Shown piece by piece: positions 26,207-63,259 of a stretch of DNA of 64,000 bases (the stretch's first letter is position 1; each line of letters starts with the position of its first letter). Source of the DNA: an uncultured Flavobacteriaceae bacterium (GTDB lineage: Bacteria > Bacteroidota > Bacteroidia > Flavobacteriales > Flavobacteriaceae); the NCBI GenBank assembly GCA_938020445.1, contig CALIIC010000048.1, positions 51,593 through 115,592 on the forward strand, in the 5' to 3' direction. Position numbers and translations under genes: made by a program. The notes below the pieces were generated by a model. That model ran no database searches. It was not told where the DNA came from and saw only the letters and a list, made by a program, of their open reading frames with translations.

Positions 26207-26227
26207 ATAGTTAATAATATTAACTAT
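26207..26227 (-). promoter_or_regulatory. 21-bp operator dyad upstream of nitrilase-marR operon
   Basis: ATAGTTAAT, AAT, ATTAACTAT: a perfect inverted repeat with 9-bp arms and a 3-bp centre, 35 bp before the start codon. On the minus strand it is followed by TTTTTGTACCTTGTA, much like the downstream flank of other copies (TTTTTAGTACATTG at 63 kb), so it probably overlaps the promoter. Confidence 0.75.
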
Positions 26228-26297
26228 CTATGAATAGAAGTTCGTTGAATCGACGAACTTCAGCTTACCAAGACAAACACCAAAAAAAACGAAAAAC

Positions 26298-27371
26298 TTA
26301 TTCAGTAAGTTTAAATTCCAAGGCAGTTGAGGGCGTATTTGCAAGTTTTTGCGTCTTTTCGATTATTTGCCAACTTACCCCTGCCGTATCGGTAAAAACG
26401 AATGATTGCTCCCCAAACTCGTTCGCTTGTATTTTAGAAGGGTTTAGCTCGTGTTTATGAACCAAATTATGCACCATCATCAATTTTGGGGTATAGAACG
26501 AATGCAGGGTGATTCCCTTCTCCCCTATTCGCTGCCGGTTGGATTTATTGGTTTTAGCTCCTCGGGGAATGAAAAATTTCAATTTTCCGCATATATTATT
26601 GGGTGATACAAATCCCTGATACCAATGACTGAAGCCAGGTTCCATTTGAAAAACCTGTTTGGGTCCTTTTTGCCAATCACCATCTATGGTTGGTTCTTCT
26701 TCTGCCTTTAACCCCAAGGCGGTCGTTAAATAAGATATTTGCTCCAAGGAGACCGCATCGATGATAAAATCGTGGTGTGTAAATTCACTTGTTTTCAGTT
26801 TTGTATCAGCATCAATGGTACCGTAACCTGGTATTTCATACCCATAGCGTTGAAAAAAAATGTGATTAAAAAAGGCTCCATAAACGGCATTTTCACGCAC
26901 TAGCACCGGACGCTTAAAAAAATCTCGGTCCCCGGTGTTCAAACCAAAAAGATCATCGACAACCGGTTCTGTGGGAAGCCATGGTTTTTTCCCCACCTCC
27001 CGGGCCGTTTGATAAATATCGAACAATCGAAAAATATCGTGGGTCATCATCACTGCTATTCGCGTACCAATGGTCTCGACCGGGGCGTAACCAATGCCTT
27101 CTCCTAGAGGGTTTTCCCATTCTAGAATACGAAGCAAACCATGACTGTCAATACCACCATTTTGTAAGCGGTAAGAACGCAGTTTTGATTCAACTCCATA
27201 GATTTTGAACGCTTCCTCTGCATCTATGATAGCGTTATCGACCTCTTTGAAACCAAAGTCGGCAAAGTACTTCTTAGCGTAGTCGGCATCCGAAGTACCG
27301 ATCATTACTTCATATAGGCCGCTTATTCCCGTATCCGGGAGCACTTGTTCGGTAGCTTTTGTATTCGTCAT
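26298..27371 (-). CDS. Two-domain VOC (glyoxalase/dioxygenase fold) protein
   Basis: A 357-residue protein whose two halves each open with a VOC-type beta-alpha-beta pattern (GLYEVMIGTSDADYAKKYFADFGF near residue 18; HHDFIIDAVSLEQISYLTTALGL near residue 190). The family includes extradiol dioxygenases, glyoxalases and epimerases. I cannot assign a metal triad by eye, although FTHHDF at the start of the second half is a candidate metal ligand. It starts 11 bp after the stop of the NADP-dependent oxidoreductase gene and forms a two-gene unit with it. Its place in the regulated island suggests a ring-cleavage, isomerisation or binding step, but the function is not known. Confidence 0.7.
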   Translation of the reverse strand: MTNTKATEQVLPDTGISGLYEVMIGTSDADYAKKYFADFGFKEVDNAIIDAEEAFKIYGVESKLRSYRLQNGGIDSHGLLRILEWENPLGEGIGYAPVETIGTRIAVMMTHDIFRLFDIYQTAREVGKKPWLPTEPVVDDLFGLNTGDRDFFKRPVLVRENAVYGAFFNHIFFQRYGYEIPGYGTIDADTKLKTSEFTHHDFIIDAVSLEQISYLTTALGLKAEEEPTIDGDWQKGPKQVFQMEPGFSHWYQGFVSPNNICGKLKFFIPRGAKTNKSNRQRIGEKGITLHSFYTPKLMMVHNLVHKHELNPSKIQANEFGEQSFVFTDTAGVSWQIIEKTQKLANTPSTALEFKLTE

Positions 27372-27382
27372 ATAGCCAAGGT

Positions 27383-28378
27383 TTACGGAACCAAAATAAG
27401 TTTTCCAAAGTTCTGTCCCGTATAGAGCATTTTTAGAGTGGACGCATAGTTTTCTAAACCTTCTGCAATATGCTCTTTCACATTAATTTTCCCTTCAGCG
27501 ATCCAAGTAGCAATTTCTTTCACCGCTATGGGCCACTCCTGAACAAAATCGAACACGATAATACCAGTTAAAACACCCCTGGCCGTTACAATTTTCATGT
27601 AGTTTTTAGGCCCTTGTATGCTTCCCATATTATTGTACTGCGATATGGCACCACAAATCACCACCCGGGCTCCCTGCGCCAAATTCAACAGCGCAATATC
27701 CAAAGTTTCCCCTCCCACATTGTCGTAAAAGATATGAACTCCCTTAGGAGCGTATTCCTTTAATTTGACATCTATATCCTCTGTCTTATAGTTTATGGCA
27801 TAATCGAAACCACATTCGTTTAGAAGGTAATCGCATTTGGCATCGGTACCGGCTGAACCAATAACAGTACAACCCTTGATCTTGGCTATTTGACCTACTG
27901 TAGAACCAACCACCCCTGCGGCGCCGGACACATAAATTACCTCTCCAACTTGGGGCTTCCCACGGCGTAATAATCCAAAATAAGCGGTCATTCCCGGCAT
28001 TCCCAATACCCCTAAGTGATGCGAGAGCTTGCCCGCTGACATCTCCAATTTCTTGAGCCCCTCACCATTCGAGATTGCGTAGGTTTGTGAACCCAATAGT
28101 CCTTCTACATAGTCCCCCTCCCCATATGCATCGTTCTTGGATTCGATGACCTTTCCTGCGGAAAAGCTGCGCATTACTGCACCGATCTCAATTCCCTTAA
28201 TATATGTGGTTCCTTCATTCATCCAACCGCGAATCGCAGGGTCCAAGGAAATCGCCTCGATTTTAATCAATACTTCTCCACTCTTTATTGGCGCTACCGC
28301 TTCTGTCACTAAATTGAAGTTGCTATCTTCGACTGCCCCCGTTGGCCTGCAGGCCAGAACCACTTTTGTGTTGGTCAT
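27383..28378 (-). CDS. Zinc-independent MDR oxidoreductase (prostaglandin reductase/CurA-like)
   Basis: A 331-residue medium-chain reductase. An N-terminal GroES-like domain (PAIRGWMNEGTTYI, AGKVIESKN) lacks zinc ligands, and the nucleotide-binding domain has GAAGVVGSTVGQIAKIKG and the family segment FYDNVGGETLDIALL. Members reduce enones and alkenals with NADPH. It is the first gene of a leftward unit with the VOC protein, starting 38 bp from the double operator at 28416-28452 and divergent from the alpha/beta-hydrolase gene. A role in saturating an activated double bond of the substrate is a reasonable inference. Confidence 0.85.
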   Translation of the reverse strand: MTNTKVVLACRPTGAVEDSNFNLVTEAVAPIKSGEVLIKIEAISLDPAIRGWMNEGTTYIKGIEIGAVMRSFSAGKVIESKNDAYGEGDYVEGLLGSQTYAISNGEGLKKLEMSAGKLSHHLGVLGMPGMTAYFGLLRRGKPQVGEVIYVSGAAGVVGSTVGQIAKIKGCTVIGSAGTDAKCDYLLNECGFDYAINYKTEDIDVKLKEYAPKGVHIFYDNVGGETLDIALLNLAQGARVVICGAISQYNNMGSIQGPKNYMKIVTARGVLTGIIVFDFVQEWPIAVKEIATWIAEGKINVKEHIAEGLENYASTLKMLYTGQNFGKLILVP

Positions 28379-28415: not shown

Positions 28416-28452
28416 TTAGTTAATATTATAAATAATTAACTATATTAACTAA
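28416..28452. promoter_or_regulatory. 37-bp double operator (MDR reductase / alpha-beta hydrolase divergent promoters)
   Basis: Reads TTAGTTAAT, three bases, core ATAAATAATTAAC, three bases, ATTAACTAA. The outer arms match the other copies; the core is the most degenerate of the six 37-bp elements. Leftward, a TACTTTTA -7-like box begins 8 bp beyond the element, upstream of the MDR gene. Confidence 0.7.
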
Positions 28453-28473: not shown

Positions 28474-29505
28474 TTGAGCACCGGTAAATACGTTCTTGTA
28501 GATTCTCGAAAGGTCCACTTTCATATGATGGGCAAGGGTCCCGCCTTGCTACTATTTCATCCTTCTCCCCATACTTCGGAAATCCTACTGCCCTTGGCAA
28601 AAGAACTGGCTTCCCATTACACGGTTTTTTCCATTGACACCCCTGGATATGGCAAATCGGATGCCTTGGGGTTTGAACCCAACGCGCTGAATGAATATAC
28701 AGATTTTTTACATAAGGCGTTAAAAGAAATGGGCTTGAAACAACCAGTGTTTTATGGTTCTGCCACTGGCGCACAGATTGCAATTCGGTACGCCTTGGAA
28801 TACCCAGATGATGTCTCTTGCCTTTTTTTGGACAACGCGGCACATTTTGATGATGCATTGCGTAGCCAAATTTTGCAACATTACTTCCCCGACCTACGCC
28901 CGCAGCTTAATGGGAATCATTTGACACAAATCTGGAGAATGGTCAGCCAAATGTTCCAGTATTTTCCATGGTGTTTTACCACGGACGAATACGCCTTGAA
29001 CCGACCGCAGCTTCCAGCAGCCGCACTGCACTATATAGCCATAGATTATTTAAAGGCCGGAAAGCATTATGATTATGCTTACAAAGCTGCGTTTCAGCAT
29101 GAGCGTGCTACTTTTGTGCAACAATTAAAAGTACCGACGACCATATTTCGCTGGAACAATAGCATCATCACTAGATATGTAGATGATTTGTTGGCCTTCG
29201 AATTCCCCCCAAATGTATCTTCCTTTGAAATTAACGGAGATCCTACAGAGCGTATGCATTTGATGACGCAGTTTATAAAGGACAAAGCAGAAGGGTTTTT
29301 AGTTTGTCAAGTATCTGAAAAAATCAAACCCTATGCTGACGCCCCAAGAATAGCATACCTGAAAGAAAATAATCATCCTCCGAAGGCTACTGCCGATGGG
29401 CTGTACCTAAAGCAAGCATGGGATGCATTGGTATTGCAGAACCCAACCCTAAGTGCAGAAGAAATTCAAGCGTGCCTTGTTGATTGGTACACAAATCCAA
29501 ATTAA
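28474..29505 (+). CDS. Alpha/beta-hydrolase fold protein with atypical nucleophile elbow
   Basis: A 343-residue protein, started at a TTG codon. The fold is clear: LLLFHPSPHTSEILLPLA (oxyanion loop), YTVFSIDTPGYGKSDALG, then the elbow. The elbow reads YGSATGAQIA, so the usual G-x-Ser-x-G becomes G-S-Ala97-T-G, with Ser one position early. A late acid is plausible, and the catalytic His may be the one in ERMHLM near residue 265. Alpha/beta-fold proteins lacking the Ser nucleophile include cofactor-free dioxygenases and lyases, so a simple esterase is not assured. It is the first gene of a rightward unit (hydrolase, lipoprotein, SDR) and divergent from the MDR reductase across the 37-bp operator. 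Confidence 0.8.
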   Translation: MSTGKYVLVDSRKVHFHMMGKGPALLLFHPSPHTSEILLPLAKELASHYTVFSIDTPGYGKSDALGFEPNALNEYTDFLHKALKEMGLKQPVFYGSATGAQIAIRYALEYPDDVSCLFLDNAAHFDDALRSQILQHYFPDLRPQLNGNHLTQIWRMVSQMFQYFPWCFTTDEYALNRPQLPAAALHYIAIDYLKAGKHYDYAYKAAFQHERATFVQQLKVPTTIFRWNNSIITRYVDDLLAFEFPPNVSSFEINGDPTERMHLMTQFIKDKAEGFLVCQVSEKIKPYADAPRIAYLKENNHPPKATADGLYLKQAWDALVLQNPTLSAEEIQACLVDWYTNPN

Positions 29506-29514
29506 AAATTCATC

Positions 29515-30273
29515 ATGAAAAAGTTACTTTATACACTTATCCTTTCAATCATCCTTGTTGGCTGCAAGGAAAACAACACAACTCCTGAACCAACACCAGA
29601 AACTACCAAGCTTGTTTCCTTGGAAGGTACCTGGGATAATTTTCAGCAATACTGGCTCGAAAACACTGAAACGGACATACACAGGGTAAAAACGGATGAC
29701 AAACACCGTCATTTATCGATGGTTATTCAAGAAGTTGAAAATGGGGGGTATTCAGCAGCACTTAAGGAGGGGAGAAACGGTCAACAGTTCGTAGAAACCA
29801 TGGCGCTCAGCGAAGCAGATTTGGCAGGGCCAGATTTCAAAATAGATGGTGACACCTTATATGTAACAGGAAGAAGCCATTTTGAAAATAAGGACCCTTA
29901 CAAGTTCATACGTACACGAAAATTTTCTGGCTGGATAGAAGTCCCTATGAAACAATACCCAGACAGTATATATAGGAAATCCAATCTTGAAATTCACGAC
30001 CAGGGAGGGATGGCCGAGCTGCACGTAGATGGCATTCAATACACCGCAGAGCTAACGCAACTGCTTTTTGGACAAAAATTAGCGATCATGAAATTGGCTA
30101 TTTATGATATGCCGTTAGATAGTGTAGAAATTAATAGTCGTTCTATTAGCTATACTTGGTTGAATCCCGAAGCCAAAAGAACGGGCATTAATCTTCGTAA
30201 AGTGACTTCGGGATGGACGCTTATCGAGCCCGGTTATATAAATTCGGACAATACGAAGTTTGATAAAAAATAG
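29515..30273 (+). CDS. Hypothetical lipoprotein
   Basis: A 252-residue protein with a clear lipoprotein signal (MKKLLYTLILSIILVGCKEN, lipobox LVGC near residue 17). The mature part is mostly beta-strand pattern with GTWDNFQQYW near residue 40 and DMPLDSVEINSRSISYTW near the end. The opening GTW-N and beta-rich pattern are lipocalin-like, but I do not recognise a family. It begins 9 bp after the hydrolase stop and its stop nearly touches the SDR start, so it belongs to that unit. Probably exported and anchored in a membrane; role unknown. Confidence 0.75.
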   Translation: MKKLLYTLILSIILVGCKENNTTPEPTPETTKLVSLEGTWDNFQQYWLENTETDIHRVKTDDKHRHLSMVIQEVENGGYSAALKEGRNGQQFVETMALSEADLAGPDFKIDGDTLYVTGRSHFENKDPYKFIRTRKFSGWIEVPMKQYPDSIYRKSNLEIHDQGGMAELHVDGIQYTAELTQLLFGQKLAIMKLAIYDMPLDSVEINSRSISYTWLNPEAKRTGINLRKVTSGWTLIEPGYINSDNTKFDKK

Positions 30274-30274
30274 C

Positions 30275-31021
30275 ATGATCCAGTCAGCATATACCGCGTT
30301 ACATTCGTACATCATTATCGTTGGGGCCAATAGTGGTATTGGGCTAGCGCTGATCAAGCAACTTTTAGATACCAAAGCGACCGTATTTGGTATTGATATT
30401 CAAAAAGAATCGAAGACCTCAGCTTCGAACCATTTTCAATATTATACGGCAAACCCCCTCGAGGAAGAAAGCCTTTTGGTAGTTGCAGAAAACATTAGAA
30501 GGCAAACCGCCCATGTAAACGGACTCGTAAATCTTTCGGGAACCATCTCGCAGTTTACATCAATAAGCGAGCTAACATTTGAGGATTGGAACGAAACGTA
30601 TGATATTAGCTTTAAAAGCTGTTTCAATGCATGCAAGGCGTTTGTACCATTGCTCAAAGAAGCAACGAACGGTGCCCTAGTCAACATGTCATCGGGCCTT
30701 GCCTTTATCGGCCAGAAAAACTATGGGCCCTATAGCGCTGCAAAGGCGGCCATACTAAGCTTCAGTAAAACCCTGGCTGCGGAACTTGCTCCGACCATCC
30801 GGGTAAATACCGTCGCCCCCGGGGCCGTGGATACTGATTTTATTTACAAGAAAGATGGGAGCACCCGATTCGATAAAGAAGCCTATACCAAAATGGTGCC
30901 TTTAGGCAGCATGGCAAAACCAGCGGAAATTAGTTCGGTTATCCTGTTCTTGTTAAGTGAAGGCGCCTCCCATATGACCGGGCAATGCCTGCATATCAAT
31001 GGCGGGGCGGGGATGCACTGA
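30275..31021 (+). CDS. Short-chain dehydrogenase/reductase
   Basis: I start at the ATG at 30275 (one base after the lipoprotein stop) rather than 30260, which would overlap. The 248-residue protein has the cofactor motif IIVGANSGIGLALI, NLSGT where classical SDRs have NNAG, catalytic Ser in NMSSGLAFIG and the YxxxK pair in YSAAKAAIL, then VNTVAPGAVDT and the C-terminal GQCLHINGG. It is a classical SDR that oxidises an alcohol or reduces a ketone with NAD(P)(H). It is the last gene of the rightward unit; a low-complexity repeat begins at its stop codon. Confidence 0.9.
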   Translation: MIQSAYTALHSYIIIVGANSGIGLALIKQLLDTKATVFGIDIQKESKTSASNHFQYYTANPLEEESLLVVAENIRRQTAHVNGLVNLSGTISQFTSISELTFEDWNETYDISFKSCFNACKAFVPLLKEATNGALVNMSSGLAFIGQKNYGPYSAAKAAILSFSKTLAAELAPTIRVNTVAPGAVDTDFIYKKDGSTRFDKEAYTKMVPLGSMAKPAEISSVILFLLSEGASHMTGQCLHINGGAGMH

Positions 31022-31366: not shown

Positions 31367-32140
31367 TCACCCCATCACCCCTTTCACCAAGCCGCCATCT
31401 ACCGTAATGGTCTGCCCTGTAATATAACTACTATGAGGAGATAGTAACCAAAGTGCTAAAGAAGCAAAATCCTCCGGTTGCCCAATTTTTTTAACCGCCG
31501 TTTGTTCAGAAAAAGTTCTTCTAATCTCTTCCTCTGGAATACCCTTTAGCTCGCTGTTTTTTGCGAACAGGTTTTCCATACGCTGTGTTGCGTGATAACC
31601 AGGTCCCAAAATATTAAGAGTCACCCCCGATGCGCCTATTTCTTGGGCAAGGGTTTTTACATAACCGGTCACTGCCAATCGCATCGCGTTGCTCAGTACC
31701 AAATTTTCTACGGGTTGTTTGGTAGCTACACTTTCAATATAAAGCAGTCGACCATATTCTTGTTCCATCATTTTGGGGAGTAACGCTTGGGTCAGCCCAA
31801 TCTTCCAACGGACCACAGTCTTATATGCATTGTCCCAGTCAGATAGGGTCGTCTCCAAAACGGGCATTGCCGGTGGGCCGCCAGAATTAATAACAGCTCC
31901 GGTAAGCACACGGTCTCCAATTTTCGTCAGTACCTCATCTAAAACAGCTTCTGATGACAGATCCCCTGCAACCACTTCTATACGGTCACTGGTCTGTTGC
32001 AGCGTTGTTAGTTTAGACCGCGTACGCGCCACCGCAATTACCAAAGCACCTTCCGCAATAAGTTGTTCGACAATTGCTTTGCCGAGACCACTTGTAGCGC
32101 CACCGACCAAAAAAAGTTTCTCTGTTAAATGTAGCTTCAT
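31367..32140 (-). CDS. Atypical SDR-family oxidoreductase
   Basis: A 257-residue protein with LVGGATSGLGKAIVEQL as the cofactor loop and the SDR C-terminal GQTITVDGG. The catalytic Ser is in YIESVATK, but the YxxxK pair is absent: the position reads PVENLVLSNAMRLAVTG. This belongs to an SDR branch with NLVLSN in place of the Tyr-Lys pair, so it may be non-canonical or non-reductive. Its start overlaps the symporter stop by 4 bp (ATGA), and it is the last gene of the long leftward operon that starts with the HMG-CoA-lyase-like gene. Confidence 0.82.
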   Translation of the reverse strand: MKLHLTEKLFLVGGATSGLGKAIVEQLIAEGALVIAVARTRSKLTTLQQTSDRIEVVAGDLSSEAVLDEVLTKIGDRVLTGAVINSGGPPAMPVLETTLSDWDNAYKTVVRWKIGLTQALLPKMMEQEYGRLLYIESVATKQPVENLVLSNAMRLAVTGYVKTLAQEIGASGVTLNILGPGYHATQRMENLFAKNSELKGIPEEEIRRTFSEQTAVKKIGQPEDFASLALWLLSPHSSYITGQTITVDGGLVKGVMG

Positions 32141-33033
32141 ACGTTTTCTTCTTTAACTATCATTCCTCTGTAAAGATAAATAACTCCAATGGCAAATACA
32201 CACATAACAACCCCATATACCCCTGGCGTGGCAGCCATTTCCGGGCTATTCAATAGACTAGGTGATATGGCAAGAGTCATCCCTAAAACGTTGTTTTGCA
32301 TCCCACTCTCAATAGATATGGTTGCTGCCTGCTTTGTTGAGAGTCTTAAAAATTTCGCGCTAAAAAAACCAATTCCCAAAGTTAATATGTTCAACAGTAC
32401 AACACTTAGAAATGCCGCTTTTAAAAAACGCCAACTGTCTCCTATTTCCTCTAACTTCAGCACCATAAAAATCAAGGCAAGTACGATGACGGTTATGGAA
32501 CCCCATTTGATGGCAGGCCTACTTTTATCTGCAAAGTTGGAAAATTTGTAGTTGATAAACATTCCAATAAAAACAGGGAGCGCCGTTAATTTAAAAATGT
32601 TGAAAATCGTTTTCCCCAACGGAAGTTGAATGCTTTTGGATGCTTCCCCAAGAATAGCGTCCAACGAAAAATTGATGATTAACGGAATGGTGAAAATAGT
32701 AACAAGACTACTGATCGCGGTCAAGGTAATGGACAAGGCCGTGTCCCCTTTGGCTAAATACGAATATAAATTAGAAACCGCACCGCCAGGACTACACGCA
32801 CAAACCATCAAGCCCATGGCTATCATGGGTTCCATAGGAACCAGCAACACAATGCCATATGCGATGAGCGGTACAAGAACAATCTGATTTAAAAGTCCGG
32901 TAAAAACCGCTTTCGGGGCGGTGCCCACCCTGGTAAAATCAGGTATTGTCAAGGTCATCCCCATCCCGAACATCACCAAAAAAAGGAGTATTTGAAGTAT
33001 CGCGGGAATGTAAGCTGATAAAAATTCCGTCAT
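32137..33033 (-). CDS. Bile acid:sodium symporter family (BASS) transporter
   Basis: A 298-residue membrane protein with about nine or ten hydrophobic segments. The signature ACSPGGAVSNLYSYLAKGDTAL near residue 95 is the crossover motif of BASS transporters, and a second GMQNNVLGMTLA matches the other crossover helix. Family members carry out Na+-coupled import of organic anions such as bile acids, pyruvate or pantothenate. Inside the catabolic operon it probably moves the organic-acid substrate across the inner membrane. The stop overlaps the downstream SDR start by 4 bp, and it begins 12 bp after the hydrolase upstream. Confidence 0.9.
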   Translation of the reverse strand: MTEFLSAYIPAILQILLFLVMFGMGMTLTIPDFTRVGTAPKAVFTGLLNQIVLVPLIAYGIVLLVPMEPMIAMGLMVCACSPGGAVSNLYSYLAKGDTALSITLTAISSLVTIFTIPLIINFSLDAILGEASKSIQLPLGKTIFNIFKLTALPVFIGMFINYKFSNFADKSRPAIKWGSITVIVLALIFMVLKLEEIGDSWRFLKAAFLSVVLLNILTLGIGFFSAKFLRLSTKQAATISIESGMQNNVLGMTLAISPSLLNSPEMAATPGVYGVVMCVFAIGVIYLYRGMIVKEENV

Positions 33034-33045
33034 CTATTGCGTTGC

Positions 33046-33972
33046 TTATTGCTGGTTTTTCCAGGTGGTTGCAATTTCCCCTCCTGAAGTGGACCATACT
33101 GCCGGGTGACTGCTTAATTTTTCAAGCACTCGCTCCAAATACTGAATGCGATGTGGTTGCCCCAATACCCAAGGGTGAATATTCAGGCCTAAAACACGCC
33201 CCCCGCCAATACTGCTCTCTTCCAATAAAAATTCAAAAGCATCGGTTACCTGATCGGCCCAATCTTCCGCAGCGTGCAAATTGTTGTTTATAATAAAGTA
33301 GTCGTCCAATTCCGTGGGTAAGGGCATTGCGACCAAAGTACCATTTTTAGTACTAAAATCATACGGCATCTCATCATTGGCCCAATCACAAAAATAGCTG
33401 ATTCCGTTCGATGCCAGTATATCAGGAGTATTCGCTGATTCATTCTTTGCAGGGCTGATCCACCCTTTGATATCTTGTGCAGTTAGGCTTCTTAAACCAT
33501 CCAATGCCCTTGCAATCAGCGCTTCCTCCTCTTTCATATCTTGGCCCCCATAATGCAATGAGTCCATATCATATCCATGACAGATAATTTCGTTCCCACG
33601 TTCCTTAAGTGTTCCTACCAAATAAGGAAGTCGTTCGGCCAAACGCGTGTTCATAGCGAAGGTAGGTGCAATACCAAACCGATCAAAGGCCTTAAAAAAA
33701 CGATAGATACCCACTCTATTTCCGTAATCCCGTAAGCTATAATGCCTTAAATCGGGATACGGTTTGGTCATTCCTCCTGGCACTTTAAAAGGAATCCCTT
33801 TTTGATTCAAGGGAAAAAATTGTAAACCTACATTCACCCACAGCGCAATTTTCTTTCCGTTAGGCCATTGTACCGCTTTACGATCTTGTAGCATCTTCCA
33901 TTCATAACGGTCATGATCCATTCCGTATGAACGTTCCGGATATTTTAGGTAGTCATTATCCAAAGTTGCCAT
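33046..33972 (-). CDS. PuuE-like polysaccharide-deacetylase-fold hydrolase (paralogue 2)
   Basis: I choose the ATG at 33972 (MATLDNDYLKYPERSYGMDH), giving 308 residues and a 17-bp overlap with the upstream gene; the longer start at 34014 adds an unlikely N-terminus. The fold is recognised from WPNGKKIALWVNVGLQFFPLN, RDYGNRVGIYRFFKAFDRF, NEIICHGYD and GWISPAKNESANTPDIL. The CE4 metal motif TFDDG is missing. The cofactor-independent allantoinase PuuE, a cyclic-amide hydrolase, was recruited from this fold and is also atypical. A hydrolase of a cyclic amide or imide is more likely than a glycan deacetylase, given the operon. It is a paralogue of the gene just upstream; both may act together. Confidence 0.8.
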   Translation of the reverse strand: MATLDNDYLKYPERSYGMDHDRYEWKMLQDRKAVQWPNGKKIALWVNVGLQFFPLNQKGIPFKVPGGMTKPYPDLRHYSLRDYGNRVGIYRFFKAFDRFGIAPTFAMNTRLAERLPYLVGTLKERGNEIICHGYDMDSLHYGGQDMKEEEALIARALDGLRSLTAQDIKGWISPAKNESANTPDILASNGISYFCDWANDEMPYDFSTKNGTLVAMPLPTELDDYFIINNNLHAAEDWADQVTDAFEFLLEESSIGGGRVLGLNIHPWVLGQPHRIQYLERVLEKLSSHPAVWSTSGGEIATTWKNQQ

Positions 33973-34909: not shown

Positions 34910-34915
34910 TGAAGG

Positions 34916-35581: not shown

Positions 35582-35585
35582 GGTG

Positions 35586-36038
35586 TTATTCCTTTTGTTT
35601 ACGGGTCTTTACTTTAGAAGACTGCATTGAAATTATTTTCCAAGTATTGTTATGAATCGTCCAAACCACCGTTAGGCGATACCTACCTTTCGGAAAATCT
35701 TTGTATTTGCGTTCGTTTATATAATTGGTGAGTACTACGTTCTCGCAAACAATTAAAAATTCAATTTCAGAACTTTCGTAGGCTTCAAAGGTGTTTTTGA
35801 TATTAACCAAGGCCACTTCTTTATTGTACTTCTTTCCGCTTTGGGAGGTAAGAATTAAGTTTGGATGATACAATTGATCTGCCAATTCAACATTACTGTT
35901 CAGGTGTGCGGTTCTTAAATTTTTGATTTGCTTGTGTATGTGTTCTGTAACCGCTGAACTGGTTTCTTGTGCATTCCCAGACAGCGTCAATAACAATGTA
36001 ATGACCATCACTAACAATACTTTTACCAAATGCATCAT
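35586..36038 (-). CDS. Exported SnoaL/DUF4440-like small protein
   Basis: A 150-residue protein with a Sec signal peptide (VKVLLVMVITLLLTLSGNAQ, cleavage near residue 24) and an NTF2/SnoaL-like alpha-beta pattern (LNSNVELADQLYHPNLILTSQSG, YRLTVVWTIHNNTWKIIS). These are DUF4440/ketosteroid-isomerase-like domains, often without a known activity. The ATG overlaps the CoA-transferase stop by 4 bp, so it is translationally coupled within the operon. Its periplasmic location among cytoplasmic catabolic enzymes is notable; role unknown. Confidence 0.72.
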   Translation of the reverse strand: MMHLVKVLLVMVITLLLTLSGNAQETSSAVTEHIHKQIKNLRTAHLNSNVELADQLYHPNLILTSQSGKKYNKEVALVNIKNTFEAYESSEIEFLIVCENVVLTNYINERKYKDFPKGRYRLTVVWTIHNNTWKIISMQSSKVKTRKQKE

Positions 36039-37782: not shown

Positions 37783-37784
37783 AG

Positions 37785-51828: not shown

Positions 51829-51847
51829 TACCCCGTTAAAAACCACT

Positions 51848-52513: not shown

Positions 52514-52514
52514 T

Positions 52515-53237: not shown

Positions 53238-53247
53238 ATAACCAAGT

Positions 53248-55719: not shown

Positions 55720-56465
55720 CTGTTTATGTATTCGTTACAGGGGGTTGCTTTTAGGTTGATAGTGGGGCCCTTGTCAGCCACACCGAATACCAGTTTGCCA
55801 TCGGCATCGGTTGCCATATCATCTAACAACAGTGCATCTCTTCGAAGAACCAGCGTTTCATTTAGGTACACCTGCGTTTCGAATCTATCGGAATAGTAGT
55901 TACAAGCGTTTTCTTTAAGATACCCTTTAAACACAGCTCCTTCTCGTTTCCAGAAAACATCACAACCCGGCTTTAGGAAAAAATCTTCCGGTTGAAGCTT
56001 AACAAATACCGCTGGATTCAAATGTCCATTTTTAAGTTTGCTCGGGTCTTTGGGGGTATAAATCCGTAACCGAATTGCCTGTTCGGTTTCATCGATCTCA
56101 AAAGCATAAATTCTTTGTCGATACAGATCATCTAAATCGTAATGTTGGGATTGCTGCGCATATAAAGTACGACCAGGAATAAAATCCAACGCTACCGAAT
56201 GGAATATATGATGCGTTTGTCGGTGCCTCCTTTCTTTTGGAATATTTTCAACTGCTTCTCGATAGACTTGCCGATGGTTATCGTATTCCCCCGGAAACCA
56301 TTCTAAGAGCATTTTAAGGTCTTTTTCAAGACGTTCCTCGGACACCGCCACAGTACTATCTTTTTTTACAAATGTTCGTGCATCATTCTTTACTGAATAA
56401 TTCACAGCCAGGGAAGTACTAAAAAGGAGCGGGAGCAGCGGTATGTAAAGTAGTTTATGCATCAT
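55716..56465 (-). CDS. CpcT/CpeT-like (chromophore-lyase fold) exported protein
   Basis: I use the ATG at 56465, which overlaps the MFS stop as ATGA; the longer frame to 56654 is a shadow extension. The 249-residue protein has a signal peptide (HKLLYIPLLPLLFSTSLAVN) and then the CpcT/CpeT layout: LLEWFPGEYDNHRQV, HHIFHSVALDFIPGRTLYAQQ, LDDLYRQRIYAFEID, KPGCDVFWKREGAVFKGYL and ENACNYYSDRF. CpcT/CpeT proteins attach bilins to phycobiliproteins in cyanobacteria and have a calycin beta-barrel. Homologues in non-phototrophs have no established role. Export and the catabolic context argue for ligand binding, not pigment assembly. Family recognition is by eye. Confidence 0.75.
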   Translation of the reverse strand: MMHKLLYIPLLPLLFSTSLAVNYSVKNDARTFVKKDSTVAVSEERLEKDLKMLLEWFPGEYDNHRQVYREAVENIPKERRHRQTHHIFHSVALDFIPGRTLYAQQSQHYDLDDLYRQRIYAFEIDETEQAIRLRIYTPKDPSKLKNGHLNPAVFVKLQPEDFFLKPGCDVFWKREGAVFKGYLKENACNYYSDRFETQVYLNETLVLRRDALLLDDMATDADGKLVFGVADKGPTINLKATPCNEYINR

Positions 56466-57727
56466 TTCATTTTTCTGGTTAAGGGGACCGGTCGTATTTT
56501 TGGAATAAAGAGCATGATGATCAAGGCGGATAATACATGTAAAAAAGCCACAATAACAAATACGGGGGAATAGGAAATGGTATCGACCAACCAGCCGATC
56601 AGCGGTGTGAACAACATGGCACCAAAGCTTCCGGCCGAACCGGAAATACCCCAAACAGATGCCGCATCTTGCTTCGGAAATAGGTCGATCGGCAGGGTAA
56701 AGAGCGATGATTGTTTGAATTGTGTTGCAAAGAGCGAGAAGCTAATTAATGCAATAGCCCAGTATGGAGATTCGATATACAAACATCCCAATACGGGAAT
56801 CACCAGGAAGGCCCCGACCCAAAGCACCCATTTTCGGGAAGCATCTAATGAAAAGCCGTTCTTTATCAAGCGACTCCCTGTCCAACCGCCCGCAAAGCTT
56901 CCGACATCTGAAAGAAGAAAAGGAATCCATGCGAACATGCCTATTTCCATGAGACTAAACCCCTTTTCATCGGCCAACCAAGAAGGAAGCCAGAAAACAA
57001 AAAAATAGAACACTCCATCGGAAACAAACCGAGAAAGCGCCAGCCCCCATACCTCCTTATGTTTTAAATAATGTAGCCACGGTAATTTGTTTCGCTTCTC
57101 CGCTTCTAATTGTCCGCTCTGAATATAGATCAGTTCTTCCCCACTAACACGCGGGTGCGCATTCGGTTCATAGTAAACCCATCGCCAAAGCAGTAGCCAA
57201 AAAAATCCCAAGGCTCCCGTCACTACAAAAGCCATTTTCCATCCCACGGTAAGAATCAACCAAGCCATTAGGGGCGGGGCTATGATGGCGCCCATTCCGG
57301 GGCCCATATTCAATATGCCCACTGCCTTACTACGTTCTTCCTTCGGAAACCATTCAGAAATAGCCTTCATGGCCGCAGGGTAGTTGCCCGCTTCCCCTAT
57401 TCCCAATAAAAATCGAAAAGCACCTAAACTGAACAATCCCTTACCAAAAGCATGCAGCATATTTGCAATTGACCACCATATGACGGCCAAAGAGAAGCCT
57501 TTTTTAGTTCCAAGTACATCGACCAACCTTCCTGAAACGATTTGCATAATAGCATAAGAGAGCAAGAATGCACTAACAATATACCCATATTGCTCGTTTG
57601 ACAGGCCGAGGTCTTCCCGGATAACGGGAGCAGCTACCGACAATGCTTGCCGGTCTATATAGTTAATGGTGGTCGCCAAAAAAATAGTCCCGGCGATGCC
57701 CCAACGAATGTTTGTACCCTTACGCAT
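56462..57727 (-). CDS. MFS transporter, anion:cation symporter (ACS)-like
   Basis: A 421-residue protein with twelve predicted membrane helices. The N-terminus ATTINYIDRQALSVAAPVIREDLGLSNEQYG is the hallmark of the ACS/hexuronate-transporter branch, followed by GRLVDVLGTKKGF (motif A), GIGEAGNYPAAMKAISEWFPKEERS and GMGAIIAPPLMAWL. Members import organic anions such as sugar acids and aromatic acids with protons. Its stop overlaps the CpcT-like start by 4 bp, and it begins 3 bp after the other MFS gene. It probably imports the island's substrate or an intermediate. Confidence 0.92.
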   Translation of the reverse strand: MRKGTNIRWGIAGTIFLATTINYIDRQALSVAAPVIREDLGLSNEQYGYIVSAFLLSYAIMQIVSGRLVDVLGTKKGFSLAVIWWSIANMLHAFGKGLFSLGAFRFLLGIGEAGNYPAAMKAISEWFPKEERSKAVGILNMGPGMGAIIAPPLMAWLILTVGWKMAFVVTGALGFFWLLLWRWVYYEPNAHPRVSGEELIYIQSGQLEAEKRNKLPWLHYLKHKEVWGLALSRFVSDGVFYFFVFWLPSWLADEKGFSLMEIGMFAWIPFLLSDVGSFAGGWTGSRLIKNGFSLDASRKWVLWVGAFLVIPVLGCLYIESPYWAIALISFSLFATQFKQSSLFTLPIDLFPKQDAASVWGISGSAGSFGAMLFTPLIGWLVDTISYSPVFVIVAFLHVLSALIIMLFIPKIRPVPLTRKMK

Positions 57728-57730
57728 CTG

Positions 57731-59002
57731 CTATGCGCCTTCAGTGACAGGTTCAGGTCCAAAAGTGCGGTACTTCCCTAAAAACAGAAGCGGTATGGAT
57801 CCTAGCACAAAGGCAAAGGCGGCGTATAACAATATTTGATCATAGCTACCGGTAGCAGTAAAAGACCTGCTGAATATATACGGACCAAAACCGGCTCCGA
57901 GGGCAAAAAAGCTATAGAGCATTCCGTAAATGGTCGAATAGTACTTCATTCCAAAATATTTAGACACCAAAAAGCCAAGAATATCATACTCTACGCCTGC
58001 GGCAAACCCAAGAATACAAATTGCGACCAGTGCCATGGAATAACTTACTTCTGGCTGAAAAAGCAGGTAACAGGAAATGGCCGGTGCACATAACAAGATA
58101 AAAGAAATCAAAGGCGCCCAAAAACGATCGATCAGGTAACCGCCTATTACCCGGCCAAGTAAAACGGAATAGCCCAAAAAACTGGCAAGGATCACGGCTT
58201 GGTTGAAGTCAAACCCTTTTGAACTCAACATTTTTTCCAGATTGGGGATAGGACCGCCTATTGCAAAGGAAATAGGGATAAAGGCCAATGCCAACAACCA
58301 AAACTTCTTGTCTTTAAAAGCCTCCCCCAGACTCATCCCATAGGTTTCGGTGGTCACCAAATCCGGAAATTCTGCTTTTAAATCAGCCGCTCTTTTTGCG
58401 ACTCTTTTATCATTTATATCCCGGAACCAAATAAAGGCGATGGGCAGGGCTATCAACAAAGGCAAAGCCCCCATCCCAAGATAGGCCATTTTCCAACCAT
58501 AGTTTTCTATCAAATAAGAGGCATATAATTTGGCCGCAGCTCCAAAAAGACCCGTTCCCATAAGGGTTACACCAAGGGCCAAACCACGGTTCTTATGAAA
58601 CCAATTGTTGACCGCTCGCGTCCATGTCATGGGCAATGTTCCCGCACCAGTAATAGAAAGCAGCGCCCAAAGTGTAAGATATAAGCCCTTGCTACCCGTA
58701 TTCAACGCAAAAGCAATAAAAGTGAGTCCGAATAAAAGTACTGCGCCCAAGACCGTCTTACGTACACCGTATTTATCTGCTACCAGACCAATCAACGGAC
58801 TCATAATAATGGCGGCAATGGTGAAAATCGGCAGTCCAAGCATCACATCGTCCATGCCCCAACCGAATTGTTTCGTCAGCGGAATGGCAAAAACCCCAAT
58901 GGTATAAAATGGCAAGGGAGACATTCCCAATCCGATACCAATTGCAGAAGAAAGGACCACTCGCCAGCCGTGTTTAAATTCGCTTAAGTTCGAAAAATTC
59001 AT
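57731..59002 (-). CDS. MFS transporter, OFA/monocarboxylate-type
   Basis: A 423-residue protein with twelve hydrophobic segments. The opening FKHGWRVVLSSAIGIGLGMSPLPFYTIGVF, SPLIGLVADKYGVRKTVLG (motif A) and TRAVNNWFHKNRGLALGVTLMGTGL are typical of the oxalate/formate antiporter and monocarboxylate porter groups. The likely cargo is a small carboxylic acid. It is the first gene of the leftward five-gene unit, with the 37-bp operator 150 bp upstream. Two different MFS carriers in tandem suggest separate uptake of substrate and by-product or a two-substrate system. Confidence 0.92.
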   Translation of the reverse strand: MNFSNLSEFKHGWRVVLSSAIGIGLGMSPLPFYTIGVFAIPLTKQFGWGMDDVMLGLPIFTIAAIIMSPLIGLVADKYGVRKTVLGAVLLFGLTFIAFALNTGSKGLYLTLWALLSITGAGTLPMTWTRAVNNWFHKNRGLALGVTLMGTGLFGAAAKLYASYLIENYGWKMAYLGMGALPLLIALPIAFIWFRDINDKRVAKRAADLKAEFPDLVTTETYGMSLGEAFKDKKFWLLALAFIPISFAIGGPIPNLEKMLSSKGFDFNQAVILASFLGYSVLLGRVIGGYLIDRFWAPLISFILLCAPAISCYLLFQPEVSYSMALVAICILGFAAGVEYDILGFLVSKYFGMKYYSTIYGMLYSFFALGAGFGPYIFSRSFTATGSYDQILLYAAFAFVLGSIPLLFLGKYRTFGPEPVTEGA

Positions 59003-59152: not shown

Positions 59153-59189
59153 ATGATTAATCACATTAATAGTTAATTAAATTAACTAT
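59153..59189. promoter_or_regulatory. 37-bp double operator (MFS unit / LeuC2 unit divergent promoters)
   Basis: ATGATTAAT, CAC, core ATTAATAGTTAAT, TAA, ATTAACTAT. It lies between divergent units starting at 59002 (minus) and 59235 (plus). Leftward, a TAAATTTA -7-like box follows the outer arm. Confidence 0.78.
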
Positions 59190-59234: not shown

Positions 59235-59753
59235 ATGAGCAGGCCCGAATTAAAATTATTTCCGAAGCATGAAGGCATTTGGGAAGGAACATATAAAAGA
59301 ATAGGAGCGGATGGCAAACTGATTGACGAATGGAAAAGTCGCCTAACCTGTGTCCTACTCCCCGACAACAAGTACCATCAGGTAAATGAATACACTTGGG
59401 AAGACGGCTTTAAAGAATGCCTCGATTTCGGTGTGTGCCCGTTCAATGAAAAAAACGAATTGATTTTTGAAAATCCCCGCCTTAGCGGTAAGGCTTGGGA
59501 AACGGGGAGAAGTGTTGTCCTAATTTGGGAATACAAACATCGCCCCGGCATGATGTTGTTCGAACAAATTGACCTTATCGGAAATGATGACCATCGCATC
59601 AGGGTTTGGAAATGGTCTGAAGGAGATACCTTCAACGGCATTACCATGATCGAAGAACGAAAGGTTTGCGGCAAAGAAGGCATTGATCCCCAGTTTTGGA
59701 TCGATCTGCCAAAGAATAGAACCAACGGTCAGGCATCGAGATCCGATAGCTAA
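59235..59753 (+). CDS. Small lipocalin/DUF3598-like cytoplasmic protein
   Basis: A 172-residue protein without signal peptide. The pattern FPKHEGIWEGTYKRIGADG, SRLTCVLLPDNKYHQVNEYTW and SGKAWETGRSVVLIWEYKHRPGMMLFEQ is that of a calycin-type beta-barrel and recalls DUF3598-like proteins (by-eye resemblance only). Calycins bind hydrophobic ligands or catalyse isomerisation or hydration. It is the first gene of the rightward unit with LeuC2, amine oxidase and LeuD2, 33 bp before LeuC2. With the CpcT-like protein it makes two calycin-like proteins in the island. Confidence 0.6.
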   Translation: MSRPELKLFPKHEGIWEGTYKRIGADGKLIDEWKSRLTCVLLPDNKYHQVNEYTWEDGFKECLDFGVCPFNEKNELIFENPRLSGKAWETGRSVVLIWEYKHRPGMMLFEQIDLIGNDDHRIRVWKWSEGDTFNGITMIEERKVCGKEGIDPQFWIDLPKNRTNGQASRSDS

Positions 59754-59786
59754 CAGACCCCACAATATTAATACAACCACCAGCAT

Positions 59787-61055
59787 ATGGGAATGACCAT
59801 TACAGAGAAGATTATGGCCCGCAATAGCGGCCGCGAAAAAGTAGTCCCCGGTCAATTGGTATGGACAGACGTGCATACGGTAATGACAATGGACTATTTA
59901 GGGAAAACCTGTTTTGACAAATTTAGATCCTTGGGAAAGACCGAGGTCTTTGATAAAAATCGAGTGATATGTGTATCGGACCACTTGGTTCCCCCACCCA
60001 ATCAAAAGTTCGCTACCATGTTGAACGAGTGGCGAGCGGTGGTGAAGCAGCATGATATTACCAACTTCTACGACCTTGGCAGACAAGGAATCGCACATCA
60101 AATAATGGTGGAACAAGGGCATGTACTCCCAGGAAAAATAAGTATCGGAACCGACTCACATGCCAACACCTATGGTGCCGTGGGCGCCATGGGGAATGCT
60201 ATTGGGGTGACTGATGCCGCCGTTGCGATGGCCACTGGCAAGGCTTGGTTTCGAATTCCCCAATCGGTTAAGTTTAATATTACCGGAACATGGCAACCAT
60301 GGGTGATGGCCAAAGATCTAAGTCTTCATATCATGGGGATGATGCATTGGAACGGCCATTTGTTATATAAGGCATTGGAGTTTACCGGACCCGCGATCAA
60401 AAGCCTTAGCATGGCAGGTCGCATGACCTTGTGCAATATGACCGTCGATTTGGGGGCCAAAAATGGGATTATAGCGCCCGATGTAATTACCGAACGCTAT
60501 TTGAGAAATAGGACGTCGGATGCGTGGGACATGCTCGCAAGCGATGAGGACGCAACATATGACCAAGTGTACGATATTGACATTTCCGATTTAGGGCCCA
60601 CCATTGCGCTACCAGGAAAATTAGATGATACCGTACCGATCGACAAATTGATAGGCACTAAATTCAACAAAGCCTTTGTAGGCACTTGCACCAATGGGAG
60701 GCTGGAAGATTTTGCGGCAATGGCCGAGATTATGAAAGGCAAACAAGTGCATCGCGATGTAAATATGATTCTGGTACCCGCAAGCCAAACCGTTTATTTG
60801 GAAGCGTTGCGCGCAGGGTATATAGAAACCTTGGTAGAAGCAGGCGCTGCAGTTGACACCCCAAGTTGTGCCGCCTGTGCCGGCATTCATACCGGAGTGG
60901 CAGGTGATGGTGATATCGTATTAAGCGCAGGGAATCGAAATATGACCGGGCGCATGGGAAGCCGAAAGGCTGAAATCTATTTGACCTCCCCAAGCGTAGT
61001 GGCAGCCTCCTCGATACGAGGTGAAATTACCGACCCAAGAACCTTTGACATTTAG
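59787..61055 (+). CDS. Aconitase-family hydratase, large subunit, second copy (LeuC-like)
   Basis: A 422-residue protein with iron-sulfur cysteines in FVGTCTNGRLEDF near residue 298 and SCAACAGIHTGV near residue 360, plus GTDSHANTYGAVGAMGNAIGVTD. It differs from the first copy in many substrate-region residues: VSDHLVPPPNQK replaces IDHAAPSPNER, and MAKDLSLHIMGMMHWNGHLLYKA replaces the usual segment. Both Met1 and Met3 are possible starts. It should pair with the small subunit at 62429, separated by the amine oxidase gene. The altered sites suggest a different substituted dicarboxylate from the first hydratase. Confidence 0.9.
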   Translation: MGMTITEKIMARNSGREKVVPGQLVWTDVHTVMTMDYLGKTCFDKFRSLGKTEVFDKNRVICVSDHLVPPPNQKFATMLNEWRAVVKQHDITNFYDLGRQGIAHQIMVEQGHVLPGKISIGTDSHANTYGAVGAMGNAIGVTDAAVAMATGKAWFRIPQSVKFNITGTWQPWVMAKDLSLHIMGMMHWNGHLLYKALEFTGPAIKSLSMAGRMTLCNMTVDLGAKNGIIAPDVITERYLRNRTSDAWDMLASDEDATYDQVYDIDISDLGPTIALPGKLDDTVPIDKLIGTKFNKAFVGTCTNGRLEDFAAMAEIMKGKQVHRDVNMILVPASQTVYLEALRAGYIETLVEAGAAVDTPSCAACAGIHTGVAGDGDIVLSAGNRNMTGRMGSRKAEIYLTSPSVVAASSIRGEITDPRTFDI

Positions 61056-61070
61056 TCAAATCGCAGGTAC

Positions 61071-62417
61071 ATGAAAAGAAGAACGTTTATTCGGAATACG
61101 ACAGCGGCGGGTTTGGCTTTGGGCCTTGCTCCCCTTGCATGTGCAAAGCCTTCACTTGATACTGAAATAGTGATTTTAGGAGGTGGGCTTTCTGGATTGT
61201 ATCTCGCGTATCTGCTCGAAAAAGCGGGGAAAGAGTATATTCTTTTAGAAGGGAGTAATCGTTTGGGTGGCCGAATGTTTACCAGAAAGGATATCGATCG
61301 CGATGTGGGAGGAAGAGGCATTGGCGATAAATATACAGAGGTAATGAAACTCATCGAGGAGTTCAATACCGAGATGATCGACATTACGGACTATATGCGT
61401 TCCCCAACCGCTACCTATCTCGATGGACAGTTGTACGATAAATGGCCCGATCCGGCGACCAATCCAGCCTATTTACAATTTTCCGCTTTTGGAAAATCGC
61501 CTCAATTAACGGCCCTTGACCAATGGTATCAAAAACCCGAATTGGATGAGGTGTACAGCGCACTTTTAAAAAGAAACGGACTTACAGAGGCACAAATAGA
61601 TTTGGCAAATATCAGCGCCAATTACAACGACATCCGAAAAACATCGGCCATTAACGCTTATCATAGTTCCGCTTTTAGAAAATTCAATGGTTCCGAACGA
61701 ATCCTAAACTTCAAAGGGGGTACTGCCAATTTTATAGATGCTGTTGCCAATAGTCTTAAAAAGCAGGTCTTTACAGATAAAATGGTCACAAAAATAGCGG
61801 ACCAAAACGAAAAGATAGAGGTACATTGTAAAGACGGTAGTACCTATAGTGGCAAGAAAGTAGTAAGCACATTGCCATTCTCAACCCTGCGGGATGTTCA
61901 AATGAACGGCACTTTTAACACCAATCAAAAGAAAGCCATTCAACAGCTGGACTATACCAACATTACGCAAATACACCTGGAACATTCGGAAGCGTTTTGG
62001 GAAGAAGATGGACTGCCGGTAGACATGTGGACGGATACACCCTTGGAGCGAATCATGAACATGAGTTCCTCCCCTACCGAAAAACAGTTGGCATGTTGGG
62101 TTAACGGTACCGGAACCGCATTTTTTGACACGATGAATGAAGCGGAAATTGCAGCCTATACCATTAAAAAAATCAATGAAATTCGCCCGGCCTCCAAGGG
62201 CAAAATCGAATATCTGGGCCTACAGAATTGGGGACAATATGAATATAACAAAGGGGCTTATGTTGAATTTGGTCCTGGAGAAGCGGCTTGGTTTTTAGAT
62301 ATGATCAAACCGGCAGGGAATATGCATTTTGCAGGAGAACATACAGCACACGAATCACGCGGTATGGAAGGGGCCGCAGAATCGGCCAAACGGGTTTTTA
62401 ACGAACTAATGAACTAA
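61071..62417 (+). CDS. Flavin amine oxidase-family protein with Tat-type signal
   Basis: A 448-residue protein. The N-terminus MKRRTFIRNTTAAGLALGL is a twin-arginine signal and ends in PLACAK, a possible lipobox. The FAD motif is EIVILGGGLSGLYLAYLLE with LLEGSNRLGGRM, and the C-terminal FAD site is MHFAGEHTAHESRGMEGAAESA. The family oxidises amines or C-C bonds next to heteroatoms. It is located between the large and small subunits of the second hydratase (15 bp and 11 bp gaps). Export would separate it from the cytoplasmic hydratase, so it may act first, on the incoming substrate. Confidence 0.88.
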   Translation: MKRRTFIRNTTAAGLALGLAPLACAKPSLDTEIVILGGGLSGLYLAYLLEKAGKEYILLEGSNRLGGRMFTRKDIDRDVGGRGIGDKYTEVMKLIEEFNTEMIDITDYMRSPTATYLDGQLYDKWPDPATNPAYLQFSAFGKSPQLTALDQWYQKPELDEVYSALLKRNGLTEAQIDLANISANYNDIRKTSAINAYHSSAFRKFNGSERILNFKGGTANFIDAVANSLKKQVFTDKMVTKIADQNEKIEVHCKDGSTYSGKKVVSTLPFSTLRDVQMNGTFNTNQKKAIQQLDYTNITQIHLEHSEAFWEEDGLPVDMWTDTPLERIMNMSSSPTEKQLACWVNGTGTAFFDTMNEAEIAAYTIKKINEIRPASKGKIEYLGLQNWGQYEYNKGAYVEFGPGEAAWFLDMIKPAGNMHFAGEHTAHESRGMEGAAESAKRVFNELMN

Positions 62418-62428
62418 ACACGTATACG

Positions 62429-62953
62429 ATGATAAAAGGAACATGTTGGGTAGCCGACGACTATGTAATGGCGTATGACATTATCATTCAAGAATATTGG
62501 ACTTCGGCTATTGATGCCACTGAGAATAGCAAATGGGTAATGGCCGGGGTAAAAGAAGAATTCAATAAAGAAAATGCTTTTAAGGACCAAGGATACACAT
62601 TCATAGTAGCCGCACATAACTTTGCCGGTGGGGGCAAATCGATTGAGCATGTAATTACAGGGCTCATGGGAGCCGGTATTCAAGCCGTTTTTGCCACCAG
62701 TTTTGCCCGGTTGCAATTTCGGAATGCCATTAACTACGGTTTGCCATTTGTAACCTGTGATAGCATTAGCGAAGGCTGCGATACAGGAGATGAATTGGAG
62801 TACGATCCGGAAAGTGGTATGATTCGCAACCTTACCAAAGGAACACAGTTTCAATCGGTACCAGCCGCTCCCTTTGTGGCCGAAGTTGGTGAAGCAGGGG
62901 GCTTAATGAACTACATCCGTGAAAAAATAGCGAAGAGCGAAGCGATTGAATAG
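62429..62953 (+). CDS. Divergent aconitase-family hydratase small subunit, second copy (LeuD-like)
   Basis: A 174-residue swivel-domain protein recognised by FATSFARLQFRNAINYGLPFV and the C-terminal EVGEAGGLMNYIREKI. The two substrate-contact motifs are rebuilt: DTDRIIPGKY becomes YVMAYDIIIQEYW, and GCGSSREQAP becomes FAGGGKSIEHV near residue 64, removing the substrate-binding Ser-Arg pair. It pairs with the LeuC-like protein at 59787. The substrate must differ from isopropylmalate, and possibly has only one free carboxylate or a larger group in that pocket (inference). Confidence 0.85.
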   Translation: MIKGTCWVADDYVMAYDIIIQEYWTSAIDATENSKWVMAGVKEEFNKENAFKDQGYTFIVAAHNFAGGGKSIEHVITGLMGAGIQAVFATSFARLQFRNAINYGLPFVTCDSISEGCDTGDELEYDPESGMIRNLTKGTQFQSVPAAPFVAEVGEAGGLMNYIREKIAKSEAIE

Positions 62954-63259
62954 GTATGACAATTCATTTTTGCATATGCTTACCGTGTTTTCAGTCTTGG
63001 TATAAAAATCCCAACAAAGGAAACTGATCGCTATAAAGCGTATCTTCATTGAAATTTTCTTAAAGTACTAAATCAAATCCTGCGATTCTGTTTATTTTTA
63101 ATGATTAACTATGTTAATTATTAATTATATTAACTATTTTTAGTACATTGTACCTGTCCGGCAATCCGATACGCATCGCCGGCGAAAATCAGTTGCTTGG
63201 TTCACAAAAAAAATCTCTAATCGTATTTTTAGAACTTGAAGCACATCTATCGAGACACT
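62954..63259. other. Intergenic region before the HpaI-type aldolase
   Basis: A 306-bp gap. It contains the 37-bp operator and a following TACATTGT -7-like box at 63144, with roughly a 100-bp leader. Apart from a weak CGCT/AGCG hairpin near 63030, nothing else stands out. Confidence 0.6.
63101..63137 (+). promoter_or_regulatory. 37-bp double operator upstream of the HpaI-type aldolase
   Basis: ATGATTAAC, TAT, core GTTAATTATTAAT, TAT, ATTAACTAT, followed 6 bp later by TACATTGT, nearly the same downstream context as the aceE copy. Confidence 0.8.

Follow-up and report, generated by a model that had tools for sequence, protein, structure and literature searches.

The window analysed here is a stretch of 64,000 bp from an uncultured Flavobacteriaceae bacterium (assembly GCA_938020445.1, contig CALIIC010000048.1, positions 51,593 to 115,592 of the forward strand). 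It contains a catabolic gene island of about 40 kb in which an AT-rich palindrome recurs between the genes, either as a single 21-bp dyad or as a 37-bp double element. Judged from the sequence, these sites are most probably the operators of an autoregulated MarR-family repressor, encoded at 24589-25104, that would govern every unit of the island until a pathway compound releases it. That the sites belong to one regulon is well supported by their genome-wide specificity, by positions conserved across genera and by their placement in the gaps between genes.

Architecture of the sites

All nine sites listed in the preliminary description can be found in the sequence, six elements of 37 bp and three dyads of 21 bp. 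The positions given for them were exact in all cases but one; the element placed at 46054 conforms to its layout when taken as 46053-46089. The sites and the gene of the proposed regulator are as follows.

24589..25104, minus strand: MarR-family regulator, second gene of the nitrilase-marR unit, proposed binder of all operators
26207..26227: single 21-bp dyad upstream of nitrilase-marR, predicted autoregulation
28416..28452: double operator (putative, as are those below) between two divergent units
40569..40589: single dyad proximal to the 11-gene unit, with counterparts in genomes G026 and G215
40623..40643: single dyad proximal to the aldehyde dehydrogenase gene, 54 bp from the 40569 dyad
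45220..45256: double operator upstream of the TonB-dependent receptor gene, abutted by a TATATTGG promoter-like box
46053..46089: double operator, divergent
47429..47465: double operator
59153..59189: double operator, divergent
63101..63137: double operator upstream of the HpaI-type aldolase gene

The single dyad has the consensus WTAGTTAAY-N3-RTTAACTAW. The double element is, as had been proposed, two overlapping dyads with centres 16 bp apart, and 24 such pairs were found across the islands of the window and of two relatives, genomes G026 and G215. It can be rewritten as four hexamers, RTTAAY-N3-RTTAAY-N1-RTTAAY-N3-RTTAAY, with spacers of 3, 1 and 3 bp; position 19 of the 37 is free. The 9-3-13-3-9 layout, described earlier as strict, is present in all six elements of the window; in the element at 28416 an inner arm has one mismatch (ATAAAT where RTTAAY is expected). 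Spacing was examined in 66 intergenic dyads with at most one core mismatch from the three islands. The distances between dyads up to 80 bp were 16 bp (n=24), 9 bp (n=3), 25 bp (n=3), 54 bp (n=2) and 67 bp (n=1), and the pairs at 9 and 25 bp, six in all, are register shifts. The counterparts of the 40569 and 40623 dyads are 125 bp apart in G026 and 54 bp apart in G215.

The two kinds of site differ in the quality of their arms. The perfect half-site WTAGTTAAC was found in 17/30 half-sites of single dyads (three register-shifted dyads dropped, one doubtful single retained) vs 6/48 outer arms and 1/48 inner arms of double elements, a comparison that is overstated because orthologous sites are not independent. 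In the doubles, the overlap of the two dyads forces the inner arms to a compromise sequence. The element of the 28416 type, with the 16-bp step and at most one core mismatch per dyad, is found in 23/23 related loci that have the reductase gene, three loci that lack this gene being left out. Its inner mismatch (ATTTAY or ATTCAT) is retained in 20 of these 23 with flanks that vary, which suggests a tuned affinity.

Specificity, placement and conservation

Two patterns were used in the searches, a short one consisting of the exact 15-bp core RTTAAY-N3-RTTAAY and a full-arm one consisting of the core plus the outer arms, WTARTTAAYNNNRTTAAYNAW. The exact core occurs 14 times in the window, whereas 30 first-order Markov sequences contain it 0.2 times on average. 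In the 4.66-Mb assembly it occurs at 17 places, 14 of them inside the window, which equals 1.4% of the assembly; the remaining three (C17, C75 and C178) are without matching outer arms. The whole-genome scan shows that the sites are not common elsewhere, since all 12 places of the full-arm pattern fall in 26207-63137. This pattern was derived from the island's own sites and the relatives therefore serve as independent checks. In both of them every full-arm place lies inside the island (15/15 in G026, 15/15 in G215), giving 42/42 for the three genomes. The short core is less specific in the relatives, with 17/37 exact cores inside the island in G026 and 22/27 in G215. The chance estimates, about 1e-25 to 1e-27, assume random placement along the genome, and orthologous sites are non-independent observations.

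The placement of the sites follows the orientation of the genes. Gene units were delimited by spacing and open reading frames (ORFs) were counted if at least 90 amino acids long. In the window a site is found in 4/4 divergent gaps, in 4/7 tandem gaps (at least 25 bp) and in 0/2 convergent gaps; the three tandem gaps free of sites are short (54, 76 and 33 bp), as within operons. The corresponding counts in G026 and G215 are 7/7 and 7/7 for divergent, 5/17 and 7/18 for tandem, and 0/2 and 0/4 for convergent gaps, so that for the three islands pooled 18/18 divergent and 0/8 convergent gaps hold a site. By these counts each unit of the window has its own site, in agreement with the description of sites upstream of nearly every unit. 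The size proposed for the regulon, about 35 genes, also agrees with the 37 ORFs counted in the window; each relative's island has 66.

The two relatives belong to two other genera and hold a syntenic stretch of about 66-70 kb. Counterparts at least 45% identical were found for 35/37 window ORFs in the G026 stretch and for 34/37 in that of G215, mostly in the same order (inverted), with a few genes absent or moved. The MarR protein is 92% (G026) and 81% (G215) identical to that of the window. The relatives' islands extend past the point where the contig of the window ends. Their extra genes encode propionyl-CoA carboxylase, methylmalonyl-CoA mutase, hydantoinase A and B, glyoxalase-fold proteins, more DUF1838 and CpeT proteins, flavin amine oxidases and MFS transporters.

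Sites and regulator also occur together when the family is considered as a whole. Among 249 family genomes, clusters of the double pattern (at most 2 mismatches) were found only in the genome of the window (7), G026 (9) and G215 (10); the other genomes have 0-2 double patterns, and a reversed-pattern control gave 0-4. A MarR orthologue is present in 4/249 genomes, three of which hold operator clusters. Plus-strand counts of the full-arm pattern are 8, 12, 15 and 4 in the four MarR genomes and at most 3 in the other 245. Scanning of eight MarR-free genomes with the full-arm pattern gave no place in seven and two places in G014. On named GTDB contigs, 26 MarR loci were found in Maribacter, Croceitalea, Aquimarina, Muricauda and unnamed Flavobacteriaceae, among them Maribacter vaceletii DSM 25230 and Maribacter algarum RZ26. 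An exact dyad lies in the fetched flanks of 25/26 loci, and the remaining one (L080, short flank) has a dyad with one mismatch. The nitrilase gene is directly upstream of marR in 25/26 loci, L078 being the exception. At the predicted binding site of the nitrilase promoter the dyad is exact in 23 of the 25 loci with nitrilase and has one mismatch in two.

At L078 (Maribacter, the same place as in genome G152) marR adjoins a methylmalonyl-CoA mutase/propionyl-CoA carboxylase operon with a perfect dyad, and no other island genes were found within the fetched 20 kb. One imidase query against G152 gave no match at E <=1e-20, in a search that had no positive control.

Matches to MarR at E <=1e-25 were found in 4/395 genomes of the phylum, these being the genome of the window and three of one genus in another family, f19. 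The f19 proteins are 45-49% identical to the MarR of the window and are encoded between imidase-like and nitrilase genes. G261 and G280 have a compact version of the same pathway cluster around marR, and the contig of G372 begins there. In 3/3 of these genomes the divergent promoter of the cluster has RTTAAY hexamers at steps of 7, 9, 7 and 9, with 2, 3 and 2 mismatches over 30 specified positions, and the central dyad of G261 is the sole exact core within 60 kb. The recognition helix is 71% identical across 19 homologues (whole proteins 49%), and NVSRxNxTNLI is common to the three f19 proteins and that of the window.

The candidate regulator and the proposed mode of control

The protein encoded at 24589..25104 has a winged-helix MarR domain that scores above the curated cut-offs (PF12802, 48.1 bits against 27; PF01047, 42.1 against 24.6), and it has the MarR fold. 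No regulator besides it was recognised by Pfam scans among the island proteins, the scans covering all 37 window ORFs and further ORFs of the G026 island, one of these via its G215 counterpart. The earlier choice of MarR as the candidate is thus strengthened, as it is also by the co-occurrence with the sites across genomes, by the L078 locus and by the MarR of the distant family with the same hexamer spacing.

In the proposed mechanism one MarR dimer would occupy a single 21-bp dyad and two would occupy the 37-bp element, 16 bp apart and sharing 5 bp; this step is about 1.5 turns, and the dimers would therefore lie on opposite faces of the DNA. The 24 overlapping pairs give a sequence layout compatible with such a two-dimer operator. 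Binding at the doubles may be cooperative, and the near-perfect singles and weaker doubles fit this, the second dimer compensating. MarR would repress by covering the -33/-7 promoter region and would be released from the operators by a pathway ligand. The dyad upstream of nitrilase-marR predicts autoregulation. Of 67 operator-gene pairs, 38 have a TANNTTTG-like box (at most one mismatch) no more than 28 bp away (57% vs 37% in shuffles, a modest signal in rows that include register-shifted duplicates), and the distances from box to operator edge cluster at 0 and 5-8 bp. This would place the -33 element within the operator, so that covering of the promoter is the most likely mode of repression.

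Several observations weigh against this account, in addition to the modest promoter signal and the overstated half-site comparison. For eight of the island's ORFs no Pfam family scores above cut-off, and a regulator of an unfamiliar kind may be among them. G152 is an exception to the clustering of operators, with six full-arm places of which one is beside marR. Away from marR, a near-perfect dyad lies in that genome between a NifS-type gene and a small ORF (C10:164805; L086 6806-6826), either by chance or as an extra target. In f19 one operator was found for a cluster of about 28 kb, its second dyad carrying 2 mismatches. Within 59 kb of G280, one mismatch is found in the central dyad and equally at two other places. 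In G372 the contig with marR is not the one that carries the promoter.

It is unlikely, given these data, that MarR binds the sites but mainly activates, or activates at doubles and represses at singles. Such activity would suit the two classes of box offset and the difference in half-site quality between singles and doubles, and RmaH is mentioned in the literature as an activator of the MarR family. The operator would, however, cover the -33 element and the spacer of the abutting promoters, and one site precedes nitrilase-marR itself. A site ahead of its own gene is the usual layout of an autorepressed MarR.

Binding of the sites by a different regulator encoded elsewhere, with MarR controlling something else, is slightly less probable still. 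The eight ORFs without family match leave some room for it; against it, the 245 of 249 family genomes that lack MarR also lack a cluster of double sites, and MarR and the site type are kept together both at the reduced locus L078 and in f19. Neither the G026 nor the G215 stretch has a counterpart of the neighbouring DeoR gene (23809). Finally, although the dyads are AT-rich palindromes, it is very improbable that they are terminators, mobile-element repeats or a by-product of AT-rich intergenic DNA: their placement in divergent and never in convergent gaps contradicts it, and the 16-bp step of the overlapping pairs with no other close distance than register shifts, the persistence of the 28416-type element and its mismatch between differing flanks, and the lack of site clusters in other family genomes all speak against it. 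The repressor encoded at 24589-25104 is thus retained as the preferred explanation.

Genes of the island and comparison with known systems

Apart from marR, the genes and units of the island are the following.

25159..26172, minus strand: carbon-nitrogen hydrolase of amidase/nitrilase type (PF00795, 1.6e-25; amidase/formamidase structures), probably co-transcribed with marR
26298..28378, minus strand: two-gene unit, an ORF without Pfam match and a double-bond reductase type with ADH_N_2
28474..31021, plus strand: unit of alpha/beta hydrolase, ORF without Pfam match and SDR
31367..40546, minus strand: 11-gene unit with HMG-CoA-lyase type, homoaconitase-type large and small subunits, CMD, CoA-transferase III, DUF4440, isochorismatase-type amidase, two PuuE/polysaccharide-deacetylase-type hydrolases, SBF transporter and SDR
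40661..42076, plus strand: aldehyde dehydrogenase (PF00171, 2.8e-102)
42410..45106, minus strand: TonB-dependent receptor
45383..46030, minus strand: flavodoxin-fold reductase type (PF02525, 5.3e-47)
46128..47012, plus strand: DUF1838 protein, predicted beta-barrel like CpeS, DUF3598 and nitrobindin, among other barrels
47510..53952, plus strand: unit of AceE-type E1, E2 acyltransferase and three ORFs without Pfam match above cut-off
53961..59002, minus strand: unit of two MFS transporters, CpeT-type protein, ORF without Pfam match above cut-off and zinc-type reductase
59235..62953, plus strand: unit of DUF3598-type protein, second homoaconitase-type large subunit, flavin amine-oxidase family protein and small subunit
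63236..64000, plus strand: HpaI-type aldolase, running to the contig end (contig of 115592 bases, ending with the window)

The assembly is 82% complete and the contig stops inside the island. When the window's genome was queried with hydantoinase A, the only match was 37% identical and encoded on another contig, and all full-arm sites are on contig C48; the rest of the island is thus probably missing from the assembly.

Some proteins of the island stand apart. The 357-aa protein at 26298-27371 matches nothing in Pfam or NCBIfam and no PDB sequence significantly, and its G026 counterpart has relatives at 63% identity in the distant family. The E1 at 47510-50188 is a homodimeric AceE-type pyruvate dehydrogenase (1237 bits vs a cut-off of 860); with its E2 inside a catabolic island it perhaps acts on 2-oxobutyrate. 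In G215 a single ADH-type reductase family is matched in part by each of two overlapping ORFs (L056 2677-3697), which are possibly one gene with a frameshift. Beside the island, 19137-24582 holds a SusD-type gene, a 992-aa gene 30-36% identical to the TonB receptors of the island, and a gene for a DeoR-family regulator (23809-24582). The DeoR gene and the SusC/SusD-like pair were rejected as members of the system: the DeoR and SusD-type genes have no counterpart in the relatives' stretches, and no core with fewer than 2 mismatches was found at these genes. Further out, 2738-16855 on the minus strand is a single open reading frame of 4705 codons.

The gene content suggests, as a hypothesis, breakdown of bilin-type tetrapyrroles via maleimides to propionyl-CoA. 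In a bolder form of this reading, calycin-type bilin binders and flavin- and dioxygenase-type enzymes would cut the pigment to dialkylmaleimides, which PuuE-type hydrolases would open and the isochorismatase-type amidase would deamidate. The two homoaconitase-type hydratases, with the HMG-CoA-lyase-type and HpaI-type enzymes, would then cleave two kinds of dialkylmalate, and propionyl-CoA carboxylase and the mutase would complete the pathway. Cyclic imides are the presumed substrates of the PuuE-type proteins because of homology to the PuuE allantoinase. In the model of the DUF1838 protein, transmembrane barrels match as well as calycins do. Among the matches listed, the open-licence PMC literature gave no bacterial catabolic pathway for this substrate class, and searches on imidase, dimethylmaleate hydratase and tetrapyrrole catabolism gave nothing usable. 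Relatives of the DUF1838 proteins (46128-47012, P0047, P0067, P0089 and P0090) are named from Henriciella, Hirschia and Hyphomonas, and parts of the pathway may thus occur in Alphaproteobacteria under another regulator. The bolder form of the reading, which we consider somewhat more doubtful than probable, would make the island a complete single-switch regulon for linear tetrapyrroles (phycobiliprotein bilins or breakdown products of chlorophyll or heme), in which each unit would have its strength set by a code of two-dimer MarR operators.

A locus of 37-66 genes, and little else, appears to be run by one small regulator whose cis code can be read from the sequence, either one strong dyad or a pair of weaker, overlapping dyads exactly 16 bp apart. 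The sites mark out the genes of the pathway without recourse to annotation, among them families of no known function (DUF1838, ORFs without Pfam match), and the regulon is directly testable in the named strains that carry the marR locus.

A literature search found no paper on a palindromic-operator MarR regulon of Flavobacteriaceae, and the system is classed as a regulon of the MarR family whose operator layout is new. Regulators of the HpaR type are encoded in the aromatic catabolic cluster that they control. The marR gene studied here likewise lies within the catabolic cluster that it is thought to control, but the gene content differs and the protein scores 35.2 bits against the TIGR02337 cut-off of 121.2. 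The calycins resembling phycobiliprotein lyases and nitrobindin sit, in the island, among catabolic enzymes.

The zinc repressors AdcR and ZitR share with the present system a TTAA-based palindrome with one or two sites in the promoter, and ZitR is described as binding two TTAACYRGTTAA sites overlapping -35 and -10 (PMC6372160). The distance of the TTAA repeat is, however, 9 bp here vs 8 bp there, the sites do not match the TTAACYRGTTAA operator, the genes are catabolic and not for zinc uptake, and the protein scores 39 bits against the NF038251 cut-off of 175. The closest parallel for the double element is the MarR-family protein Rv2887 of M. tuberculosis, described as binding with two dimers on nearly opposite faces of a 30-bp DNA, about 15 bp each, with the QacR and ST1710 complexes cited as similar (PMC5526998). 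Here too two dimers would share one short DNA, the dyad centres being 16 bp apart. The Rv2887 DNA is given as GC-rich and only partly palindromic, whereas the sites described here are explicit AT-rich palindromes in a layout that recurs over the island.

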